IMG/VR virus record: IMGVR_UViG_3300024520_000116
Coordinates: 1-47,975 of that record
DNA: 47,975 nucleotides
Origin: a virus
Reading direction: 5' to 3' (one strand)
The position numbers were made by a program, and so were the translations under genes. The first letter of the stretch is position 1. Each line of letters opens with the position of its first letter. The notes beneath the pieces are model-generated. The model was not told the origin of the DNA. It made no database searches and worked only from the letters and a program-made list of their open reading frames with translations. Positions 4,326 through 45,568 of the stretch are shown here, one piece after another.

Positions 4326-5146
4326 TGAATGTTATCGCGGGTATGCCACGTGCAGGCAGCACGTTGCTATGTAACCTGCTAAATCAGAACCCCAGCTTCC
4401 AGGCAACCAGTACGAGTATCCTCCCGGGGATGATCATGCTGATGAGCCAGTATTGGAGCAACTCCTTGGAGATCCGTGGGGCTCTTATCAACGATCGTCT
4501 TGCTACTGAAGTGCGGATGCGAGACACCATGCTTGCAATAGCACGGGCATGGTATCCCACGGATAAGACAGTCTTTGATAAAGGCAGACAGTGGACAGGC
4601 AACCTCCCTCTATTCTTTAAGGTCTTCCCTACCGGGAAGGTGATCATCTGTCTTCGGGACCTTCGAGAGATCGTGGCGTCCATCGAGAAACAACATCTAA
4701 AGAACCCGATCCTGAATGTCGCCCCCGGAATGAACGTCCGACAGCGCGTCTCGAAGATGCTCGCCCCCAAGGGGATGCTTCGGATCTGCCTCAACGGTCT
4801 ACGCGATATCCTTGAGCGCAAGCTCGACGTCTACTTCCTCCGTGCTGAGGAACTAACACGCTTTCCTCAGCAGGTTATGGAACGGCTCTACGCGTTCCTT
4901 GAGGAACCTACTTTCGAACACACCCTCGAAGGTGTTCTCAACACCGCCGAAGACGTGGATGCGCTGTATCTTCACAAGTATCCGCACGAAGGTTCCGGGG
5001 ACATCTATCCCCTCGAACCCAGCTGGCAGAAGTATCTCTCGGATGGCTTAGCATCTGAGATCACCAGTGCCTTCCCCTGGTATAACGAAGCGTTTGGTTA
5101 TGGTGGACGAAAGTTGAGGGCAATCCGACATGTCCCTGCTGCTTAA
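4322..5146 (+). CDS. PAPS-dependent sulfotransferase
   Basis: A 274-residue sulfotransferase-family protein. The N-terminal GMPRAGSTLLCNLL (residues 7-20) fits the 5'-phosphosulfate-binding loop (family consensus PxSGTxxL). KVIICLRDLREIVAS (about residues 105-119) fits the 3'-phosphate-binding strand and helix (RDxRxxxxS). Such enzymes move a sulfuryl group from PAPS to a hydroxyl or amine on a glycan, protein or small molecule. The start overlaps the previous gene (ATGA) and the stop overlaps the LamG protein start by 17 bases, so it is embedded in the tail-gene operon. The acceptor is unknown; a virion protein or a host surface glycan are the natural candidates. An APS kinase at the window's far end (47605) could supply PAPS. 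Confidence 0.85.
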   Translation: MMNVIAGMPRAGSTLLCNLLNQNPSFQATSTSILPGMIMLMSQYWSNSLEIRGALINDRLATEVRMRDTMLAIARAWYPTDKTVFDKGRQWTGNLPLFFKVFPTGKVIICLRDLREIVASIEKQHLKNPILNVAPGMNVRQRVSKMLAPKGMLRICLNGLRDILERKLDVYFLRAEELTRFPQQVMERLYAFLEEPTFEHTLEGVLNTAEDVDALYLHKYPHEGSGDIYPLEPSWQKYLSDGLASEITSAFPWYNEAFGYGGRKLRAIRHVPAA

Positions 5147-19171: not shown

Positions 19172-19356
19172 AGGATTTTTCCATACGCCCAGTCGCCTGA
19201 GCTTTCGAGAATTTCAAGATGCTGCAAGGGTTCGACGTTGACCCCTACGAAGATGCCGTCATCCAGTTCTATGTACTGAGCAATACTCTCCTCGAAAGCA
19301 TACCGGAGTTGTCGGTATTGCTCAGGCGTTAGTTGTTTCAGTAACTCTTCAATCAT
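19168..19356 (-). CDS. Small protein of unknown function (62 aa)
   Basis: A 62-residue protein. Its ATG at 19356 overlaps the primase-helicase stop by eight bases; a longer upstream frame would run inside the helicase gene and is rejected. The sequence (MIEELLKQLTPEQYRQLRYAF) starts with an amphipathic helix followed by an acidic beta-like part and ends DWAYGKIL. Its end overlaps the DUF5664 start by four bases. It is probably a genuine coupled cistron in the replication operon; the function is unknown. Confidence 0.55.
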   Translation of the reverse strand: MIEELLKQLTPEQYRQLRYAFEESIAQYIELDDGIFVGVNVEPLQHLEILESSGDWAYGKIL

Positions 19357-22054
19357 CGGTCGGGTCGAGGTATTTCTTATCGACAAGGATAAGCCGTCGC
19401 TTCTCGTCTGACACTGGCGGTTTGCCTTTCCACCAGACATTGCCAATGCAGTGCTGTCCATCTTTACGCCTCCGGCCCTTGGGATATTCAGGAGGTAGTG
19501 CACGATTCATCTTGATCTTACTCCAGTTATCCTGCTCACTGGGATCAAGCCACTTATAGAATTCGAGGTAGAAGTCAGACACCTTAATCATCTGACCGGA
19601 AACCTGTTCGCAGTTCTCCTCGATGAATACATCAAGGTCACTCTGGTTAAGACGTTGAATCTCTGCCTTCTCACGGGTATTGATAATTGGAATGTGAAGG
19701 CGACTGTTGCTCTCGGGAATCTCGATGCTCAGGATCTCAGCTAAGAAATCAGGAGCCTCTTTCTCTAGTAGTGGGACGAACCTCTTACGGGGAATCATCT
19801 CTAATGGGGAGAGAGGGTGAACGTAACACATCGTAATACGTGTATCCCCAGGGAACACAGGGCACGCTTGGAACTCGTTATCACACTGGACGAAGTGCAT
19901 CGTGTTGGTCGACATGAAGGGCGTCTTACCCTTGTAGACAACCTGGTAATCAGGTGATGTCACCCAGTCCTTGATACGTCGGTTCGCGATCTTATTCTTG
20001 CGGAGATCCGTCTCCTCAATGATGCAGAGGAGCGCACCATCTAGCTCACCATTGAACCCACTCTGATTCGTCAGTGCATTGTCTGCACGGACATAGCCTC
20101 TTGTGAGCAGTAGCTTCAAAGCCAAGTGGAACGATGACTTGCCTGTGTCCTCAGGGCCATAGAAGAACAGATACGGTAGCGGCTCGTAAGGGTTCTGGAA
20201 CAGGGACGCTACCCAGATCTTCAAGTAGTCAGCACCGTTCAAGACACCGTTCGCCCGGCACCAAGGATCAAGCTTGATGGCGTCATCCAACCCAGAACCA
20301 CAGTGGCTAAGCAGCTTGAGCCATGTCGGATAGCTAAGGTTCTCAGTGTCCGGGTTCGGCTGATACTTGAGCTGGGCTGCGTTTCGGTTCCATTCACGGT
20401 CACCTGGGTACTCAGGCTGGAATGGTTTGTTGACAACTTTCCAAGGCTTAAACACGCAGGCTCCCATGATCTGTTTAACTTCTTTGATTGAATGACCTAG
20501 ATACTCGAGCCCGAGCTTGATATGCTCCTTAGGCTCTCGGGACCATACGCCTTCGGTACGAAGCATCCAGCCTGCGTCCTCACGTGTAGTTCCCTGTACG
20601 ACCAACTTACGGATGAGATCATCCTGATTGATCGTATCCGGCTCCTCAGGTGAGATAACTTGCGTGGACATGATTCGCTGCCAGTGTCCCTTCTTCACAG
20701 CCCACCCACGCATCTTACCACCGTCGTCTTCCTTCTCATGCTTCAGGCGAACGATCAAGCGACCGTCTTTGTGTTGCTTGAGGATCGTCTTACGACCACG
20801 CATCCTAATGTCAAAGTTCAGATGCACGCCTAATAGATTGGCTGCCTCGATTGCGGACTCTGCATCGAGGAACTCAAAACTTCCATCAGTATCCTCAACG
20901 CCTGAGTAGGCACGACAAACTGTTGCAAGGTCGGGGTCTCGATTAAGATAGCATCGAGTCCATCCGGCACCATCCTGTGACCAAGAAGAATGCTCTTGAA
21001 CACCTGGGGTATAGCGTCTGATAGTCCAAGCACCCTTGCGGATGGGAAAGGCGAAGCAGTTCTGTTCATTAGTGTTTCCTCCTTTGGAGTCGGTTTTGAA
21101 GAAGCCTTTGAATCCAAGCTCCTCATGGGCTTGCTGCAAGTAGTAGGTATGGGTCACGAGCATGTAGTGGTCCTGATCCCACCACCACAATGAGTTCGAA
21201 GATTCGAGGTAATCAATCAAGCGTTGATGTTCGGCATCTAGCTTGTTCCTCGGACGTTGACCAGTTAGCTCGTCAAAGATATCTCCTTTGCCGACCTCTT
21301 CGATCTTCTTCGGAAGATTCTTCCTGCGGGCACCCTTCACGACCTTAACATGGTCACGCCAGTTGGGTGGTATGTCTGTGAGGATGTCACCATCCTTCAG
21401 AAGCTCAAGCCCATCTGTGCCTTTCATCTTACGATGCCAGACCCACATGTTCCCGCCGCAAATGTCCACCTTAGACTGGAAGTCGAATCCTGTGAGCGCA
21501 CCCATCTTGCCAAGGATCGCTCGGGCTAATGCTGCGTGCTCGTTATGGTTCGCGGTCTCGGGTCCATCGAGCATGACGTAAAGGTGTAATCCCTTACCGG
21601 ACGTGCTCTTACGGATGCTGACCCACGGGACCTCAAACGCTGCCTGACGCACTGCGTCAAGTTCCTGGTGCGTTAGCTTAGCCAGGTGCTTGTCGCTATG
21701 GCCGATGATCGCATCAAAGTCGTAAGCGACCCAGCGCGAACAACGTGCAACCCAGTCCCATCCGGTCATCCCGATACCCTCTACGTGGGCGCTCAGGTTA
21801 AAGGACATTGGAACGTCCTTAAACTCTGGATCGGAATTAGCCTTGTATGGGATTCTCAAAGCCTTCCACGTTTCAGCACCATTGGTGTAAGCCTGGTACT
21901 GACGCCCTTTGAAGTCTTTCGTTACACGGTCTCCACCATCCTGCGCCACGTTTACCTGTACTTCCATATCATGATGATACATCAAAGCCAGGTCTTTATG
22001 CGTGCTCGCCATTAGGAAGCGTTTGATTGCTTCCGTTCTTGATGGCTGCATCAT
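19349..22054 (-). CDS. Replicative primase-helicase (AEP primase + SF3 helicase)
   Basis: A 901-residue protein. The N-terminal part has the archaeo-eukaryotic primase/PrimPol layout: VAYDFDAIIGHS (about residues 108-119, D-x-D metal site) and SIRKSTSGKGLHLYV (about 146-160, the S-x-H-type nucleotide site). The middle is a linker. The C-terminal helicase is superfamily 3: FFYGPEDTGKSS (about 630-641, Walker A) and ALLCIIEETDL (Walker B). This D5-like arrangement both primes and unwinds, so it is the likely main replicative helicase. It is the first gene of the minus-strand operon, starting next to the DnaA-box region, as expected for an initiator or loader of replication. Confidence 0.85.
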   Translation of the reverse strand: MMQPSRTEAIKRFLMASTHKDLALMYHHDMEVQVNVAQDGGDRVTKDFKGRQYQAYTNGAETWKALRIPYKANSDPEFKDVPMSFNLSAHVEGIGMTGWDWVARCSRWVAYDFDAIIGHSDKHLAKLTHQELDAVRQAAFEVPWVSIRKSTSGKGLHLYVMLDGPETANHNEHAALARAILGKMGALTGFDFQSKVDICGGNMWVWHRKMKGTDGLELLKDGDILTDIPPNWRDHVKVVKGARRKNLPKKIEEVGKGDIFDELTGQRPRNKLDAEHQRLIDYLESSNSLWWWDQDHYMLVTHTYYLQQAHEELGFKGFFKTDSKGGNTNEQNCFAFPIRKGAWTIRRYTPGVQEHSSWSQDGAGWTRCYLNRDPDLATVCRAYSGVEDTDGSFEFLDAESAIEAANLLGVHLNFDIRMRGRKTILKQHKDGRLIVRLKHEKEDDGGKMRGWAVKKGHWQRIMSTQVISPEEPDTINQDDLIRKLVVQGTTREDAGWMLRTEGVWSREPKEHIKLGLEYLGHSIKEVKQIMGACVFKPWKVVNKPFQPEYPGDREWNRNAAQLKYQPNPDTENLSYPTWLKLLSHCGSGLDDAIKLDPWCRANGVLNGADYLKIWVASLFQNPYEPLPYLFFYGPEDTGKSSFHLALKLLLTRGYVRADNALTNQSGFNGELDGALLCIIEETDLRKNKIANRRIKDWVTSPDYQVVYKGKTPFMSTNTMHFVQCDNEFQACPVFPGDTRITMCYVHPLSPLEMIPRKRFVPLLEKEAPDFLAEILSIEIPESNSRLHIPIINTREKAEIQRLNQSDLDVFIEENCEQVSGQMIKVSDFYLEFYKWLDPSEQDNWSKIKMNRALPPEYPKGRRRKDGQHCIGNVWWKGKPPVSDEKRRLILVDKKYLDPTDD

Positions 22055-22057
22055 AAG

Positions 22058-22138
22058 TTATCCACAATTCCCTCACAATTGTTAGTAACTACGATCTGAC
22101 CATCAGTAGTTATCCACATTTTACACAAGTTATCCACA
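22058..22138 (+). promoter_or_regulatory. Three DnaA boxes (TTATCCACA)
   Basis: Exact 9-mers TTATCCACA occur at 22058-22066, 22110-22118 and 22130-22138, with 52 and 20 bp between starts. This is the consensus R1-type DnaA box of E. coli and related bacteria. Three perfect copies in 81 bp are very unlikely by chance. They lie directly upstream of the primase-helicase start on its template side, so they could be origin boxes, an autoregulatory site, or both. Confidence 0.75.
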
Positions 22139-22160
22139 ATTTCCACAATGACTCCTTTTG

Positions 22161-22244
22161 CTGACTAACTCTTTTCTACTAGACTGAAACGAAAGAAGAG
22201 TAATAGAGTATCATAAGAGAGGGAAGAAATAAAGAGTTAGTCAG
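22161..22244. repeat. 14-bp inverted repeat in origin region
   Basis: CTGACTAACTCTTT (22161-22174) and AAAGAGTTAGTCAG (22231-22244) are perfect reverse complements, separated by 56 bp. The loop is purine-rich (GAAAGAAGAGTAATAGAG). It lies just downstream of the DnaA boxes. It may be a binding site for an initiator, a bidirectional terminator for the diverging units, or part of a secondary structure used at the origin. Confidence 0.6.
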
Positions 22245-22367
22245 GAAAGCCGTAAGTCCTTGCCCTGTAAGGGTTTACGCAAAATCGACAAAATCCCGAA
22301 CGATCACGCGGAATGGGCGTCTAAGAGAGTCCTGGCTCAGTTTCTTCAGCCGGGTTTTACCACCGAT

Positions 22368-22399
22368 GGCATCACATCCAAAAACTATGATGTGATGCC
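22368..22399. promoter_or_regulatory. GGCATCACAT/ATGTGATGCC inverted repeat before ParB-like gene
   Basis: A 10-bp perfect inverted repeat with a 12-bp spacer lies 26 bp before the ParB-like ATG. The spacer and right arm contain TATGAT (22386-22391), a near -10 box, so a protein bound here would block the promoter. A further GCATCACA half-site lies at 22415-22422, seven bases before the ribosome-binding region. Related half-sites occur downstream of the gene. It is a candidate operator or parS-like site for the adjacent ParB-like protein; binding is inferred. Confidence 0.55.
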
Positions 22400-22425
22400 T
22401 AACATTTTGATGGAGCATCACAAAC

Positions 22426-23403
22426 ATGGGTGAATTGAAAAAGGTCGCGCTGTCCGACATCCGGGAGAACGACGTTGCACTGCGAACCGTGAACCGCGAG
22501 TCCGAAGACTACTTGGGCCTGGTCGAGTCGATCCGGTCCAAGGGCTTCATCGGCGCGATCAGCGTCCGAGAGCGTCAGGACGAAGATGAGACATCGTACT
22601 ACGAGTTGATCGATGGCCTGCATCGCTTCAACGCCTCGAAGGACGCTGGGCTCTCCACGATCAACGTGGATGTCGTCGATCTGGATGAGGACCAAGTCCT
22701 CGAAGCGCAGATCATGGCGAACATCCACAAGATCGAGACGAAGCCGATCGAGTACACTCGTCAGCTCAAGCGCATTCTGACCCGCAACCCGCTGATGACG
22801 GAAGCGGAGCTGGCGGCCAAGCTCGGCAAGAGCGCGTCGTGGATCGCCGGGCGTCTCTCGCTCAACAAGCTGGCGAGCGATCAGGCCAAGACTCTCGTGG
22901 ATGAGGGCAAGATCGGTCTCAGCAACGCTTACGCTTTGGCGAAGCTCCCCGCTGAGGAGCAGGCTGACTGGCTCGACCGGGCGATGACCCTCGCTCCGGA
23001 TGAGTTCATCCCCAAGGTGACTGAGCGTCAGAAGCAGATCCGCGAGGCACGGCGTGCCGGGAAGGAAGCCGGTCCCGCCGAGTTCCAGCCCGTCCCGCAC
23101 ATGCAGAAGCTCAAGGCTCTGAAGGATGAGTTCGAGAACGGCGAGGTTGGTCGCGTGTTGTGCTCCAAGCACAGCGTGGCGAACCCGATCGATGGCTTCG
23201 CTCTCGGAATCAAGTGGGCGCTCCACATGGATCCCGACAGCATCGAGGTCCAGAAGGAGAAGGACGCTGAGCGGAAGGCCCAGCGCGACGAGAAGAAGCG
23301 TCACAAGGCCGCCGAGAAGGCGAAGGCCAAGGCTGAGAAGCTGGCGAAGGAGCTGGAGGAAGCTACGACTGCGGCTGCTGAGGCCGAGGCTTCGCTCGCC
23401 TAA
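22426..23403 (+). CDS. ParB-like DNA-binding protein 1
   Basis: A 325-residue protein. Residues 1-120 are a ParB/Srx N-terminal domain: VALSDIREND, YYELIDGLHRFNASKDAG (about 59-76, the ParB R-motif region) and AQIMANIHKIETKPIEYT (about 95-112). A helix-turn-helix follows: LMTEAELAAKLGKSASWIAGRL. From about residue 275 the C-terminus is a Lys/Glu/Ala-rich coiled coil (QRDEKKRHKAAEKAKAKAEK), probably for dimerisation. ParB-family proteins bind centromere-like sites; stand-alone phage versions also act as regulators. No ParA gene is seen nearby. The gene is GC-rich in third positions, like its downstream neighbour at 23659, suggesting high expression. It starts after a GGAG at 22411-22414. Confidence 0.8.
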   Translation: MGELKKVALSDIRENDVALRTVNRESEDYLGLVESIRSKGFIGAISVRERQDEDETSYYELIDGLHRFNASKDAGLSTINVDVVDLDEDQVLEAQIMANIHKIETKPIEYTRQLKRILTRNPLMTEAELAAKLGKSASWIAGRLSLNKLASDQAKTLVDEGKIGLSNAYALAKLPAEEQADWLDRAMTLAPDEFIPKVTERQKQIREARRAGKEAGPAEFQPVPHMQKLKALKDEFENGEVGRVLCSKHSVANPIDGFALGIKWALHMDPDSIEVQKEKDAERKAQRDEKKRHKAAEKAKAKAEKLAKELEEATTAAAEAEASLA

Positions 23404-23550: not shown

Positions 23551-23624
23551 GGGCTTGTGGTGTAAAGGTTGCACGCTGATGTTCGCGACATTAGAAGACG
23601 AGGTCCGAACCCTCGCATAGCCCA
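23551..23624 (+). tRNA. tRNA-like element with atypical acceptor arm (possible anticodon CGC)
   Basis: A 74-nt cloverleaf can be drawn. The D arm GTGT-AAAGGTT-GCAC is good, as is the T arm CGAGG-TCCGAAC-CCTCG. The anticodon arm is TGATG-TTCGCGA-CATTA, giving anticodon CGC (Ala) if the loop is seven bases. Oddities: an extra base between D and anticodon stems (or a 6-bp anticodon stem), and an acceptor GGGCTTG/CATAGCCC that pairs only with one bulged T. The T loop starts TCC instead of TTC, no CCA is encoded (TCA follows), and there is no G3-U70 Ala identity pair. It may be a decayed tRNA or a tRNA-like regulator. A T-run (TTTTTT) follows at 23631-23636. Confidence 0.45.
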
Positions 23625-27112: not shown

Positions 27113-27235
27113 ATGACTTGGACAGAAATTGCAAGACACATCCTTTCAAAAGGAACCCTCAAGGGGATCCCAACTGAAACCCTCAAGGATATGATCGCGG
27201 AACTTGAAGCTATTACCAACCAGGAGACCCAGTGA
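27113..27235 (+). CDS. 40-residue protein
   Basis: A 40-residue gene: MTWTEIARHILSKGTL at the start, a helix-like TETLKDMIAELEAI and end NQETQ. Its TGA (27233-27235) overlaps the GTG start of ParB-like gene 2 (27232), which suggests translational coupling. The sequence reads as two short helices, perhaps dimerising. It was found by reading the gap between larger genes; no homologue is recognised. Confidence 0.45.
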   Translation: MTWTEIARHILSKGTLKGIPTETLKDMIAELEAITNQETQ

Positions 27236-28077
27236 CAACTATGCAAATTAGCGACATCCCGATGTCCATCATCCTCTTTGACGAGGAGTTCAACTGTCGG
27301 GGACCGATCGCCCCTATTGACGTAACCGATCTAGCCAACTCGATCAAGGAGCGTGGGTTGATTCAGCCCGTGGTCGTTTGTCCCTTGACCGGGCATCGCC
27401 TGAACGCCAATCCCGGGAAACAGTTTCTCCTCATCGCTGGCTATCGGCGGTTCACCGCGTTCAAGGTAAACAGCGAGACTAAGATCCCAGCGATCATCCG
27501 CAAGGATATGATCGACGAGACCGAGGCTAGGTTCTTCAACCTGTCCGAGAACCTCCAGCGTAAGGACTTGAATCTTCTTCAGGAAGCTCGAGCCCTAGCA
27601 AAGCTCGAGCGTCTCGGCGTATCGGAGATGGAGGCATCCAAGAAGCTGAACGTCGGACGTGGCTGGGTTCAGGTTCGTTACATGGTCCTACGGTTGCCTG
27701 ACGAGGTTCAGGAGGAGATCGCTGCTGGTTGGATGTCGCAGAAGCAGATTCGAGACTGCTACTCTCACTTCGTGGACTCTGGGAAGGAGGCGTGCTTCAA
27801 CGTCGTCAAGGAGTTCAAGGACGATAAGATCAAGGGGCGCAAGGGCACCCGTAAGAAGGTCAAGAAGAAGAAGGCCAAGGATCACAGCACCAAGAAGGCT
27901 CGTGACCGGAACGAAATCTTCGAGATGCAGGCTCATGTCTATGAGCAGCTTGGAGGTAACAGCATCGTGACTCGTGGCTTTGCTTGGTGTGCTGGAGAGA
28001 TCAGCGACCTGGAATTCCACCAGGCGATGCAGACATTTGCGGAGACTCTCAATAAGCACTACCGTCTGCCGCAGTAA
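27232..28077 (+). CDS. ParB-like DNA-binding protein 2
   Basis: A 281-residue protein from GTG 27232, overlapping the previous stop. It has the canonical ParB N-terminal layout: IPMSIILFDEEFNCRG, DLANSIKERGLIQPVVV, LLIAGYRRFTAFKVN (the G-x-R-R motif) and FFNLSENLQRKDLNLLQEAR (the E-N-L-Q-R-x-D-L-N motif). A helix-turn-helix region (EMEASKKLNVGRGWVQVRYMVLRL) follows, then a basic linker (about residues 200-225, KGRKGTRKKVKKKKAK) and a C-terminal domain. It is closer to bacterial ParB than protein 1. Phage stand-alone ParB-like proteins can be partition or regulatory factors or nucleases. No ParA is seen. Confidence 0.8.
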   Translation: MTTMQISDIPMSIILFDEEFNCRGPIAPIDVTDLANSIKERGLIQPVVVCPLTGHRLNANPGKQFLLIAGYRRFTAFKVNSETKIPAIIRKDMIDETEARFFNLSENLQRKDLNLLQEARALAKLERLGVSEMEASKKLNVGRGWVQVRYMVLRLPDEVQEEIAAGWMSQKQIRDCYSHFVDSGKEACFNVVKEFKDDKIKGRKGTRKKVKKKKAKDHSTKKARDRNEIFEMQAHVYEQLGGNSIVTRGFAWCAGEISDLEFHQAMQTFAETLNKHYRLPQ

Positions 28078-28418
28078 TGATCGACCTATCCAACTACGGG
28101 GACACCGATATTTTGTCCCCTGGAACTATATTCCAAGAACTTGATGCCTCATCTCCCGAGGAAGACTTTGACATCAGTTTCCTTAAGCATATGGTGCATG
28201 GCCATTACCACTTCCCGGTGGTGGCTCGCTCCTGGTGTCTCTGGGAAGAAACTGTCAAAGCTGAGGTCTACTTCAAGTGGGACGTTTGGCACTTTACCCT
28301 TCAAGTGTTTCTATATGATGTCCACCATCAGTGTCCATCGTGTCGGTGCACACAACATGCGGATCTTCAGGAGCCCATCCGTGAGATGTTGGAGGAGCTA
28401 GTCTGTGATCTTCTTTGA
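28077..28418 (+). CDS. Unknown protein before DNA polymerase
   Basis: A 113-residue protein in a TAATG junction with ParB-like gene 2 and overlapping the polymerase start by 14 bases. The N-terminal 40 residues are acidic (SSPEEDFDIS). The middle has aromatic strands (WCLWEETVKAEVYFKWDVWHFTLQVFLYD) and the end has CPSCRCTQHADL, a possible metal site. No family is recognised. Tight coupling to the polymerase gene suggests a replication-linked or processivity-type role, but this is only inference. Confidence 0.55.
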   Translation: MIDLSNYGDTDILSPGTIFQELDASSPEEDFDISFLKHMVHGHYHFPVVARSWCLWEETVKAEVYFKWDVWHFTLQVFLYDVHHQCPSCRCTQHADLQEPIREMLEELVCDLL

Positions 28419-30903
28419 TACTGAGACTTGTGGCTTCCACGGTCCTACTGTGCTTATCCAGTGGGCCGAGGGTGTTGATGGTGTCATCCATCTGTTCAAT
28501 GTCTGGGACTCTCCAATCTGGGAGACTCTCCAGCTTATCGAGAAGCTCTGTGATTCTGTTGTCTGCGCTTTCAACTTGGCGTTTGACTGGTTCCACATCT
28601 GCCAGACGTATACGATCCTAGAACTATTGGCAGCGAAAGTAGGTATGGATGCACTCCCCGGAGATCACATCGAAGAGTACGCTATCCTGGAGCCGAAGGC
28701 GCGTTTCGGTGCGTGTCTCAAGCCTCGTGGTGCTCTTGATCTTATGCTACATGCTCGGAAGGGTCCATATCAGTCAACGATGGACCGGAGTGATGTGCGT
28801 ATCCGTCGGGTGCCTACTCAGCTTGCTGAGCCTCTGGCGCGAAAACTCGGAGAGCTGATCCCGCTTAACGATGTCTACTTTGCACGCTTCAAGGATAAGA
28901 AGCGTCGGTGGGTTGTATACGATATCAAGGACGACCTCGATGAGATCATCCCTGAGTTCAAGGACGTTGTTCTTAGGTTCAAGCCGTCGTCGGCGCTCAA
29001 GGCTCTGGCGGCTGATGCTCTTGGGGCTACGGACGTTATCAAGTTCGTGGACATTGATCTGCCAAAGAAGGCATACCCGAAGGAGAACGGATGGGCTCCT
29101 TTTGCTGCTAGTGTCGGTAGCCCAGGAGCCTGGAACGGTGCCTGGCCTGAGAAGATCGGGATGCATATCCGGCACTGGGGCTATAACAGGTTTGCGAGGA
29201 AATATGCAACCGACGATGTCAAGTATCTGCAAGGTCTCTATACTTACTTCGATAAGCCTGACCATAGTGACGATGATAGCATCCTCGCTTGCAATGTGGC
29301 TGCTGTACGTTGGCGTGGTTTCGCTATTGATCGGGATGGGCTGGCAGCATTACGTAAGGTCAAGCAAGCCGAGGTCGAAGAGTTAGGCTTCAACCATAAC
29401 AGTCATAGAGTTGTCAGACGATACCTTGAGCAGGCACTATCACCCACTGAAGTAGCAGTGATGAAGGATGGCAAGGGGAACATCTCCACCAAGGGAATTA
29501 TCCTTGAGGAGATAGCTAGCTGGATGGTCGAGGATGTCTGCGACATCTGCTTTGGCATGGGTGAGACAGAGATCATAGTTGATCCTGCAACAGGCCAGGA
29601 GCGAGTCAGCGGCAACGTCTGCAAAGGCGAGTGTGTTGACGGTATGATTAAAACGGATGTGGAGCATCCGGCTGCTGTCCGAGCCGCTGCGGTGCTCAAG
29701 GCCAGGCGTGCGGCTAAGCGTGTTCAGTTGATCAACAAGCTTTTAATCGCCGGACGATTCCACGCTAGTGTTAAGGTCATCGGCACGCTGTCTACTCGCA
29801 TGGCTGGTGCTGATGGTATGAACCCACAAGGGATCCCTCACGATGAAGTCTTCAGAAAACTCTTCGGTCTCGCTGACGGTCAGCTCGTCCTTTGCGGAGG
29901 GGATTTCGCAGGCTTTGAGATCTGCCTCATGGATGCGGCATACGGGGACCCTGTACTTCGGGCAAAGCTCCTCACTAAACGTCCGTGCCACGTTTGTGAA
30001 CTCTCCGGGAAATGCAAGAAGTGCAAAGGATCGGGATGCAAGAAGTGTGGTGATGACGGCATCTGCACAGAGTGTAAGGGAACCCTCGAAACAGACACCA
30101 AGATCCATGCCCTCTTCGGAACCTACCTGTTCAAGTCTGAGGGACTCACCTATGAGGATATTCTCTCGACAAAAGGTCTACCCGGAGAGAAAGACAAGTA
30201 TGATCGTAGTAAGAAGGGAGTCTACGCTACAGCCTATGGTGGCGAAAGCTACACCCTCCAGACTCGAGTAGGTATCTCGGAAGCAGATGCCGACGAAGCC
30301 TTCCGGCTATGGTGTGAGGAGCATAAGGTCTGGGGCCAGGAGCGTAAGAAGATTTTCGATATGTTCTGCTCAATGCGCCAGCCAGGCGGCATCGGGACCA
30401 GGGTTGAGTGGCATCCCCCGTCAGACTATATCGAGAGCATGTTCGGGTTCCGCCGGTACTTTACATTAGAAAACAAAATCTGCCACGCTCTCTTCCATCT
30501 AGCTGAGGATCCACCTAAAGAGTGGACGGCAATGAAGATCAAGGTGACACGTCGTGATAGGATCCAAACAGCATGTGGCGCTCTCCGAAGTGCTCTCTTC
30601 GGTGCGGCCTTTCAGGTGCAAGCTGCCAACATGCGAGCAGCCGGTAACCACGTCATCCAATCTTCAGGAGCCCAGGTCTGTAAGAAACTCCAGCGCCAAA
30701 TCTGGGACCTCCAACCTATCGGGATCGGAGATTGGAAAGTACAACCACTTAACGTCCACGATGAGGTAATGGTGCCAACGCACCCCACCCTGATCCCGAA
30801 GCTAGAGAAGCTGGTCGATGACTTCATCATCTGGTTAAAGAAAAAGGTTCCACTCGCTGAGATTGACTGGGGTAGTCGTCTCAACTCGTGGGCGGAGAAA
30901 TAA
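28405..30903 (+). CDS. Family A DNA polymerase with 3'-5' exonuclease-like domain and zinc-knuckle insertions
   Basis: An 832-residue replicative polymerase. Residues 1-160 contain the exonuclease-like FFDTETCGF (2-10, D-x-E) and NLAFDWFHI. Polymerase motif A is LCGGDFAGFEICLMD (about 493-507), motif B DRSKKGVYATAYGGES (about 598-613) and motif C PLNVHDEVMV (about 780-789). Two unusual Cys-rich insertions occur: VCDICFGMG..VCKGECVDG (about 377-413, before motif A) and CHVCELSGKCKKCKGSGCKKC..CTECKG (about 528-560, between motifs A and B). Both resemble DnaJ CxxCxGxG knuckles. It should synthesise phage DNA. The start ATG 28405 overlaps the upstream stop. Confidence 0.9.
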   Translation: MIFFDTETCGFHGPTVLIQWAEGVDGVIHLFNVWDSPIWETLQLIEKLCDSVVCAFNLAFDWFHICQTYTILELLAAKVGMDALPGDHIEEYAILEPKARFGACLKPRGALDLMLHARKGPYQSTMDRSDVRIRRVPTQLAEPLARKLGELIPLNDVYFARFKDKKRRWVVYDIKDDLDEIIPEFKDVVLRFKPSSALKALAADALGATDVIKFVDIDLPKKAYPKENGWAPFAASVGSPGAWNGAWPEKIGMHIRHWGYNRFARKYATDDVKYLQGLYTYFDKPDHSDDDSILACNVAAVRWRGFAIDRDGLAALRKVKQAEVEELGFNHNSHRVVRRYLEQALSPTEVAVMKDGKGNISTKGIILEEIASWMVEDVCDICFGMGETEIIVDPATGQERVSGNVCKGECVDGMIKTDVEHPAAVRAAAVLKARRAAKRVQLINKLLIAGRFHASVKVIGTLSTRMAGADGMNPQGIPHDEVFRKLFGLADGQLVLCGGDFAGFEICLMDAAYGDPVLRAKLLTKRPCHVCELSGKCKKCKGSGCKKCGDDGICTECKGTLETDTKIHALFGTYLFKSEGLTYEDILSTKGLPGEKDKYDRSKKGVYATAYGGESYTLQTRVGISEADADEAFRLWCEEHKVWGQERKKIFDMFCSMRQPGGIGTRVEWHPPSDYIESMFGFRRYFTLENKICHALFHLAEDPPKEWTAMKIKVTRRDRIQTACGALRSALFGAAFQVQAANMRAAGNHVIQSSGAQVCKKLQRQIWDLQPIGIGDWKVQPLNVHDEVMVPTHPTLIPKLEKLVDDFIIWLKKKVPLAEIDWGSRLNSWAEK

Positions 30904-33040: not shown

Positions 33041-33503
33041 TAGGAATCAATGCCTGCTCTACTCTTTGGCGATGCTTCTCAACGAGAAGCCGGATGTGCT
33101 CATCAATGAGATCGGTCACGATGGTACGGATATTTGGTGGGATCATGCCCCACCGTTCTGTTATCGTGGCCATCATATCCAGGAGGTCATCGACGTCTGC
33201 CTGGCTCGTGGGAAAGCCCTTGTCCCTATCGAGGGCAATCCCCAGAGTGGGTGTTTCAAGGAGCCTGGAAAGTCTAAAGCGCTCTGGGACCCTGATGTAG
33301 CATCAAAGCGCATGGAGCGTTTACTTAAGGGGCAAGAGGCTTTGCTGATCGGACAGACTCATGCTTGTGCTTGGGATGGCAACATCGTCTACGACCCCAA
33401 TGGGAGGACCTGCTCTCTGGAGGAGTTCTATCCTCTGGAGGTCTGGCTGATGTTGTCATCACATCAGAAATCCCGAGTGTCTCCTGGGTCTCAGCGATTC
33501 TGA
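33018..33503 (+). CDS. Cysteine peptidase-like protein (papain/C39 fold)
   Basis: A 161-residue protein with a cysteine-peptidase-like layout. The N-terminal SRNQCLLYSLAMLLNEKPDVL places a Cys (about 12) at the start of a helix with the Gln just before it. IGQTHACAWDGNIVYDPNG (about 112-126) gives a His then a following D-P-N-G strand, as in C39/papain-like peptidases where Cys, His and Asp or Asn form the triad. Its target is unknown. Phages encode such proteins as maturation or host-takeover proteases, but a structural homologue without activity is also possible. It follows the NYN nuclease with a 23-base overlap. Confidence 0.5.
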   Translation: MRLLRMGSRNQCLLYSLAMLLNEKPDVLINEIGHDGTDIWWDHAPPFCYRGHHIQEVIDVCLARGKALVPIEGNPQSGCFKEPGKSKALWDPDVASKRMERLLKGQEALLIGQTHACAWDGNIVYDPNGRTCSLEEFYPLEVWLMLSSHQKSRVSPGSQRF

Positions 33504-34354: not shown

Positions 34355-34464
34355 AGGTCCTTGAAGACCTGCTCAAGCTCGTTGATGATGTCGACATCGG
34401 TCCGATCGTCGAGATTCTCGAAGAGGTCGTCATTGAGCAGGCGATCTTTTGGTGGCTCCTATGA
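34351..34464 (+). CDS. 37-residue protein
   Basis: A 37-residue gene from GTG 34351, overlapping the previous stop (GTGA). It reads MKVLEDLLKLVDDV, then DIGPIVEILEEVVIEQ, ending AIFWWLL. Its own TGA overlaps the ATG of the PolX-like gene (ATGA). The sequence is a pair of amphipathic acidic helices. Exact tiling with both neighbours supports it as a real cistron, although very short. Confidence 0.45.
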   Translation: MKVLEDLLKLVDDVDIGPIVEILEEVVIEQAIFWWLL

Positions 34465-44646: not shown

Positions 44647-44720
44647 ACCCGAGTAGCCCAATGGCAGAGGCAAGAGACTTAAAATCTCTCCAGGTGTGGG
44701 TTCGATTCCCACCTCGGGTA
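44647..44720 (+). tRNA. tRNA-Leu (anticodon UAA)
   Basis: A standard 74-nt cloverleaf (discriminator A; no CCA encoded). Acceptor is ACCCGAG/CTCGGGT (7 bp), D arm GCCC-AATGGCAG-AGGC, anticodon arm AGAGA-CTTAAAA-TCTCT with anticodon TAA, and T arm GTGGG-TTCGATT-CCCAC. The variable region is only about six bases, unlike host tRNA-Leu with a long arm, so charging by host LeuRS is uncertain. UUA is a rare Leu codon in GC-rich genomes. Confidence 0.85.
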
Positions 44721-44732
44721 TAAGGAGCGGCA

Positions 44733-44975
44733 ATGGAAATTCACCATCAAGACGGATCCAAGGCACTGGTCGAGACACTCGTGGTTGCTCGCAGGACCAA
44801 GGCTAACTGCATCGCACTGTGCTTCAAGTCCAACCAATCGGCAGGGAAGGGGATCGTGATCCTGAGTCCTAACGAGGTTGCTGCTATTTTGGTAGCCGCC
44901 AAGGGTGATGACAGCATCGATGACGTGACCCTCTTCAAGATGTTCGCCAACATTAGCCCGATCATTAGGCCATGA
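44733..44975 (+). CDS. 80-residue protein, unknown
   Basis: An 80-residue protein after the tRNA (GGAGCGGCA upstream). It has an alternating beta pattern (ALVETLVVARRTKANCIALCF) then VILSPNEVAAILVAAKG and a C-terminal acidic helix. It resembles small single-domain alpha/beta proteins; no family is recognised. Its end overlaps the next start by four bases. Confidence 0.5.
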   Translation: MEIHHQDGSKALVETLVVARRTKANCIALCFKSNQSAGKGIVILSPNEVAAILVAAKGDDSIDDVTLFKMFANISPIIRP

Positions 44976-45568
44976 AGCACGTTGCAATCCTAGAAGGTTT
45001 CCAAGCTGCACCCTTCATTAAGAAGTGGCATTACTCTGGGACTGCAACAAAGGGTGATCACCATTACTTTGGATGGCTCATCAACAAGGGGATGTATGCA
45101 GTAGCTGACTACGGGTCGCCGACCAATGAACACCAGGCTCACGGGTTAGCGTCTGAGCTGCTGCTGAACGTAACGACAACAAACTTGGTTGAACTTAAAA
45201 GGTTATGCAGAGTTGAGCCTAAGCAGCAGGTGCAGCTCACAGAATTCTTGGCACGTTGCCACAAGATATTGCGGAGGATCGGTATCGTCTATGTTATGAG
45301 TTTCTCGGACCCGGCTCAAGGTCATGATGGCGGCATCTATAAGGCTGCTAACTTTGAGCATGTAGGCCAGACCAATGCTGGCTTAGCTTGCGTGGATCAG
45401 AATGGCAAACATCATCATCGTAAGTATCCTTATCGGTATGCTCATAATAATGGGTGTACTATGGTGGAAGCTTACAAGATCCTCGGCCTCAAGACAGTGG
45501 AGATTCCTCCAAAGGATCGGTGGTTACTTTGTATCAATAAGAAGAAAAGGCGGTGGGCTCTTGGATAA
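44972..45568 (+). CDS. Mom-like DNA-modification protein (GNAT-type)
   Basis: A 198-residue protein with the Mom-family signature: FIKKWHYSGTATKG (residues about 14-27), then MYAVADYGSP, LVELKRLCRVEPKQQ (about 71-85), IVYVMSFSDPAQGHDGGIYKAANFEHVGQ (about 106-133). The Mu Mom protein modifies adenine to an N6-acetamido/carbamoylmethyl form, protecting phage DNA from restriction. The GNAT-like core is complete here. It lies between two tRNAs and small genes, so co-expression with the other late accessory genes is likely. The donor and target site are not known from sequence. Confidence 0.75.
   Translation: MKHVAILEGFQAAPFIKKWHYSGTATKGDHHYFGWLINKGMYAVADYGSPTNEHQAHGLASELLLNVTTTNLVELKRLCRVEPKQQVQLTEFLARCHKILRRIGIVYVMSFSDPAQGHDGGIYKAANFEHVGQTNAGLACVDQNGKHHHRKYPYRYAHNNGCTMVEAYKILGLKTVEIPPKDRWLLCINKKKRRWALG

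Follow-up and report, generated by a model that had tools for sequence, protein, structure and literature searches.

A 371-bp region between two divergent genes of the uncultured virus record IMGVR_UViG_3300024520_000116 (47,975 bp; the whole stretch analysed, referred to here as the window) carries three perfect host-type DnaA boxes, all in one orientation, next to DNA of very low stability. On the basis of sequence comparison, we give about an even chance to the reading that this region serves a PrimPol-helicase replicon of the NrS-1/P4-like kind both as origin and as divergent control region, and that in it the DnaA boxes would replace the left arm of a large symmetric site seen in relatives. 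The window showed no DNA match to isolated phages, and its protein matches to them were distant only. The region and the two genes that flank it are as follows.

22055..22425, no strand: divergent intergenic region of 371 bp, candidate replication origin and control region
19349..22054, minus strand: candidate initiator, a primase-helicase of 901 aa with AEP-type motifs and, at the C-terminus, a DUF5906 helicase domain; NrS-1 polymerase-like
22426..23403, plus strand: ParB-like DNA-binding protein of 325 aa (ParB_N and HTH_ParB)

The primase-helicase scored above the cutoff for DUF5906 in a domain search and also matched phage primases, its match to P4-family primases being weak and below the cutoff. 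A profile search aligned residues 609-778 with the helicase structures of the NrS-1 polymerase (6k9c/6k9e, E 3e-7). No Pfam prim-pol domain was matched in this protein, and in an alignment of 16 sequences the residues D112, D114, H157 and D197 were invariant, a pattern that on motif inspection is as expected for an archaeo-eukaryotic-type primase (DxD, SxH-like, D). Further genes downstream encode a family A DNA polymerase (28405-30903), a helicase, a ligase and another ParB-like protein (ParB_N and HTH, 27232-28077), and no ParA partner was found among the approximately 40 window proteins searched. The window also encodes a tRNA-Ala(CGC) (23551-23623), a tRNA-Leu(TAA) (44647-44720) and a Mom-like DNA modification protein (phrog_1384, 44972-45568), which suggests that the phage DNA is modified.

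The initial annotation had placed three exact DnaA sites of the same orientation within 81 bp beside the primase-helicase start, and these were recovered at 22058, 22110 and 22130, occupying the left half of the intergenic region together with two weaker sites.

22058..22066, plus strand: exact DnaA box 1, upstream of the primase gene at 3 bp from its first ATG
22110..22118, plus strand: exact DnaA box 2, exact consensus
22119..22127, plus strand: weak DnaA-like site TTTTACACA (7/9), tentative
22130..22138, plus strand: exact DnaA box 3, exact consensus
22139..22147, plus strand: weak DnaA-like site ATTTCCACA (7/9), its TTCCA core kept in the relatives L009 and L007

The three sites are the sole exact copies of TTATCCACA in the 48 kb, where 0.2 would be expected, and none of 100 dinucleotide shuffles of the window reached three exact boxes. 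In shuffled versions of the 371-bp region the probability of at least one exact box was 0.0047, which puts that of three boxes at about 2e-8. Sites with one mismatch occurred across the window at chance level (11 versus 7.8 expected), and therefore the DnaA-box signal is confined to the three-box cluster. All three exact boxes extend to AGTTATCCACA and are spaced by 20 and 52 bp. Inspection by eye for DnaA-trio-like sequence yielded only CTACTAG at about 22176-22182, with no array evident.

To the right of the boxes lie the elements listed below, among which the 14-bp inverted repeat described by the initial annotation was confirmed.

22161..22174, plus strand: left arm of the inner inverted repeat, CTGACTAACTCTTT, 14 bp, with the TGACTnACT motif
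22172..22231, no strand: candidate unwinding element, only one other 60-bp stretch of the 48-kb window being less stable
22231..22244, minus strand: right arm of the inner inverted repeat, AAAGAGTTAGTCAG, 14 bp
22251..22279, plus strand: hairpin CGTAAGTCCTTGCCCTGTAAGGGTTTACG (CGTAAGTCCTT...AAGGGTTTACG), a new element with respect to the initial annotation
22368..22378 and 22389..22399, no strand: perfect 11-bp inverted repeat (GGCATCACATC/GATGTGATGCC), operator- or parS-like, immediately 5' of the ParB-like gene

The inner repeat is part of a pair of 18-nt arms that match at 94% and are separated by 56 nt; it brackets the candidate unwinding element, which begins 34 bp past box 3. The hairpin is the counterpart of the CGTAAGTC...GACTTACG hairpins present in the dyad arms of some relatives. 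At the position of the outer repeat (22368-22399), an element that was likewise absent from the initial annotation, many relatives carry AATCAAATC/GATTTGATT. Extra operator-like copies of CATCACATC were observed about 11-12 kb downstream, at 33457, 33575 and 33607 of the window and at 34396 and 34488 of the related contig G001, and the ParB-like regulator may have a second site at these distant copies.

Relatives of the primase-helicase and of the ParB-like protein were taken from viral contigs, and most of them keep the divergent primase/ParB layout, with the genes usually 325-590 bp apart. The box array was present in only two of these contigs, G001 (L009/L159) and G002 (L007/L160 and L008/L161, two pairs with identical match values), whose primases are 75-79% identical to that of the window. 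At the corresponding site G001 has three exact boxes plus three one-mismatch boxes and G002 has two exact boxes, neither contig having an exact box elsewhere, and GTTATCCACAA by the primase start is invariant in the window, L009 and L007. Low-stability DNA adjoins the array in both contigs, at 22592 in G001 (rank 1 of 38 kb) and at 4352 in G002 (rank 2 of 18 kb). The window and the two box-bearing relatives formed a single clade with 100% support in a quick tree. The boxes are conserved, in the same place, in this three-member clade, whereas some 60 other relatives lack the array and, apart from L222, show no exact box in the 600 bp that precede the primase gene; the single site in L222 could be due to chance.

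What most relatives have at this position is a giant imperfect dyad. When the best self-reverse-complement alignment of each region was scored against dinucleotide shuffles, the dyad was detected in 30 of 38 intergenic regions (30 of the 35 further relatives measured), with z values from 4.6 to 24. Of 220 stretches of 430 bp taken at random from such contigs, none reached a score of 40, and dyads scoring at least 40 comprised 81-255 paired positions. Examples are L163, L162, L197 and L193, among others, in which the arms differ between phages and match within each phage; the L163 region folded into one long hairpin (z -10.8). In 20 of 29 cases the left arm was closer to its own right arm than to any arm of another phage, indicating that the dyad arms change together, and most exceptions had a close relative within the set. 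Enrichment of shorter motifs was also found in the intergenic regions of the primase/ParB relatives, namely about 48-fold for TKACTnACT; AATCAAATC occurred 73 times, distributed over 26 of the 37 regions. An RNA-level structure was considered and set aside: the dyad mismatches comprised 205 G.T and 167 A.C (p 0.055, no clear difference) and an RNA-structure search gave no match in Rfam, so that a dyad acting at the DNA level is preferred. Possibly, the giant dyad of the relatives is an origin or a cruciform.

Self-dyad symmetry of the window did not rise above chance level (z 0.4). Nothing remains of the site there except the inner TGACTAACT pair, the hairpin on the right and the outer palindrome. 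The box-bearing L159 gave a moderate dyad value (z 4.4) that has its source in opposed DnaA-like boxes. A strict rule by which boxes replace the dyad was rejected, given that five relatives (L170, L171, L172, L211 and L221) lack both; the replacement of an arm by boxes consequently rests on one evolutionary event, and a tie between box gain and dyad loss is suggestive only.

Two further observations concern the relatives at large. Primase relatives of 39-47% identity occur in Planctomycetota, Bacteroidetes and Thioalkalivibrio assemblies, an identity too distant for naming the host of the window. One of them, L278 (G134:C1), is a 39%-identical primase-helicase located at 2.86 Mb of contig 1 of a Planctomycetota genome, probably within an integrated element, and its upstream region has neither the dyad nor exact boxes. 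The primase-helicase encoded at L207:5001-8729, on the contig of L016, contains an in-frame intein, which has LAGLIDADG and splicing domains and sits within the helicase portion, near residue 724.

According to the origin reading, most relatives would use a large dyad-symmetric site that is probably read by phage proteins; the outer palindromes would be recognised by the ParB-like protein, and the inner arms with TGACTnACT as well as the hairpins by the primase-helicase. The left arm in the box clade no longer matches the right one and carries an array of perfect DnaA boxes, two or three in number. Host DnaA may bind this array next to the low-stability DNA between the inner repeats and thereby help to open this DNA for the primase-helicase of the phage. 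Because the boxes sit within the leader of the primase gene, primase expression would in addition be tied to host DnaA. We infer DnaA binding, melting and a replication start in this region, as well as the assignment of each protein to its repeat, from the arrangement of these elements. It is a tentative and rather doubtful extension of this reading that the site was remodelled recently, one arm of a phage-specific giant dyad having been traded for a DnaA-box array, so that a self-sufficient symmetric origin became an asymmetric one assisted by host DnaA; in that case the ancestral dyad would possibly have been a cruciform or a double helicase-loading site whose arms were kept by concerted change.

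The proposal of the initial annotation that this region is an origin candidate gains from the clade-specific array, from the adjoining low-stability DNA and from the structured nature of the site in relatives, but GC skew gave it no support. No consistent switch was found at the primase/ParB site in 14 contigs, where the skew follows gene strand. As origin evidence it was discarded: gene strand accounts for the local minimum at 22 kb of the window, and the cumulative curve reaches its global minimum at 10.2 kb.

The main rival to the origin reading is a purely transcriptional DnaA site, in which DnaA bound in the primase leader represses or activates the gene and so times replication with no melting of an origin. 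As the boxes overlap the primase leader, 3-84 bp upstream of its ATG, such a role fits as well, and it has a precedent in lambda, where, according to titles cited in PMC3985674, DnaA acts on transcription at the origin. A weak -35/-10 pair on the minus strand (22145-22118) overlaps boxes 2 and 3; however, the match is poor, with three promoter-like sites against 0.9 expected and none in L009, and a site with only a regulatory function need not adjoin the least stable DNA. We regard this explanation as possible, with a clear minority of the probability.

It appears unlikely that the region is only a divergent promoter/operator, with the origin elsewhere and the dyad of the relatives serving as the operator array of the ParB-like protein. 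The strong enrichment of AATCAAATC half-sites in the relatives, the further CATCACATC copies in the window and the absence of an origin signal in GC skew would agree with it, but the 81-255 paired positions of the dyads far exceed 9-bp half-sites, and an operator has no need of a low-stability core or of hairpins. It is improbable that the boxes are iterons of a phage protein that match the DnaA consensus by chance. Their extension to AGTTATCCACA, common orientation and 20- and 52-bp spacing are what iterons might show, yet the 9-mer is the exact DnaA consensus in all eight copies from three phages, relatives encoding the same proteins lack it, and G001 has near-consensus variants in the other orientation (TTTTCCACA, TTATCAACA and TTCTCCACA), as DnaA arrays do. 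Finally, the DnaA-competing function that had also been suggested, in which the numerous copies of the phage genome would act as a decoy that titrates DnaA and stops initiation in the host, is very improbable. Every replicated genome would presumably carry perfect boxes, but each has only two or three exact ones, and these lie at the putative origin, where a decoy need not be; the window has no exact box outside the cluster, and nothing beyond the boxes themselves speaks for this function.

The origin reading can be compared with known systems. P1 oriR-type and plasmid origins combine perfect DnaA boxes, unstable DNA, an adjoining initiator gene and a ParB-like gene in the replicon. The window shares with P1 oriR the box cluster, the unstable DNA, a candidate initiator gene and the ParB-like gene, whereas no RepA-type initiator or ParA was found in it, the candidate initiator being a PrimPol-helicase. 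Lambda replicates by means of O/P and host DnaB, unlike the window phage, which has its own primase-helicase and whose boxes are perfect and clustered. The lambda origin region (pO/pR) nevertheless resembles the arrangement proposed here, in that DnaA-box-like sites near the origin and a replication gene are bound by DnaA, which is also linked to transcription nearby (PMC3985674). With the deep-sea phage NrS-1 the window shares a helicase domain related by profile, and AEP-type residues are invariant here; in contrast to NrS-1, it also encodes the family A DNA polymerase. The initiation site of the NrS-1 primase is given as TTTGGTTA in PMC8718748. As an origin motif for the present family this site was rejected, being missing from the intergenic region of the window and present in only 2 of 37 intergenic regions, and no link to DnaA was found in the portions of the NrS-1 literature covered.

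Reliance on host DnaA had been regarded as unusual for such a phage. Within the family this holds insofar as one of many lineages has boxes, but tandem boxes occur in many viral contigs. Paired AGTTATCCACA sites 5-35 bp apart were found in at least 120 stretches of 2.9 million viral contigs (none for a scrambled pair); 103 of the 120 tandem pairs among the matches listed lie between ORFs, and their nameable neighbours are most often terminase, the commonest, or DNA methyltransferase, with few primases. These numbers, together with the lambda case, indicate that it is not exceptional for a phage to have host-type DnaA sites. The use of host DnaA by a phage is thus of an already known kind, and what deserves to be followed is the proposed remodelling of the origin, together with the giant dyads and their concerted change. 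How phages with their own primase-helicase choose a start site is poorly known, and here, at one conserved gene pair, a single family has a large symmetric site specific to the phage and, in one of its clades, a site for host DnaA, an arrangement which suggests that the box-bearing clade may have taken up the host starter protein DnaA.
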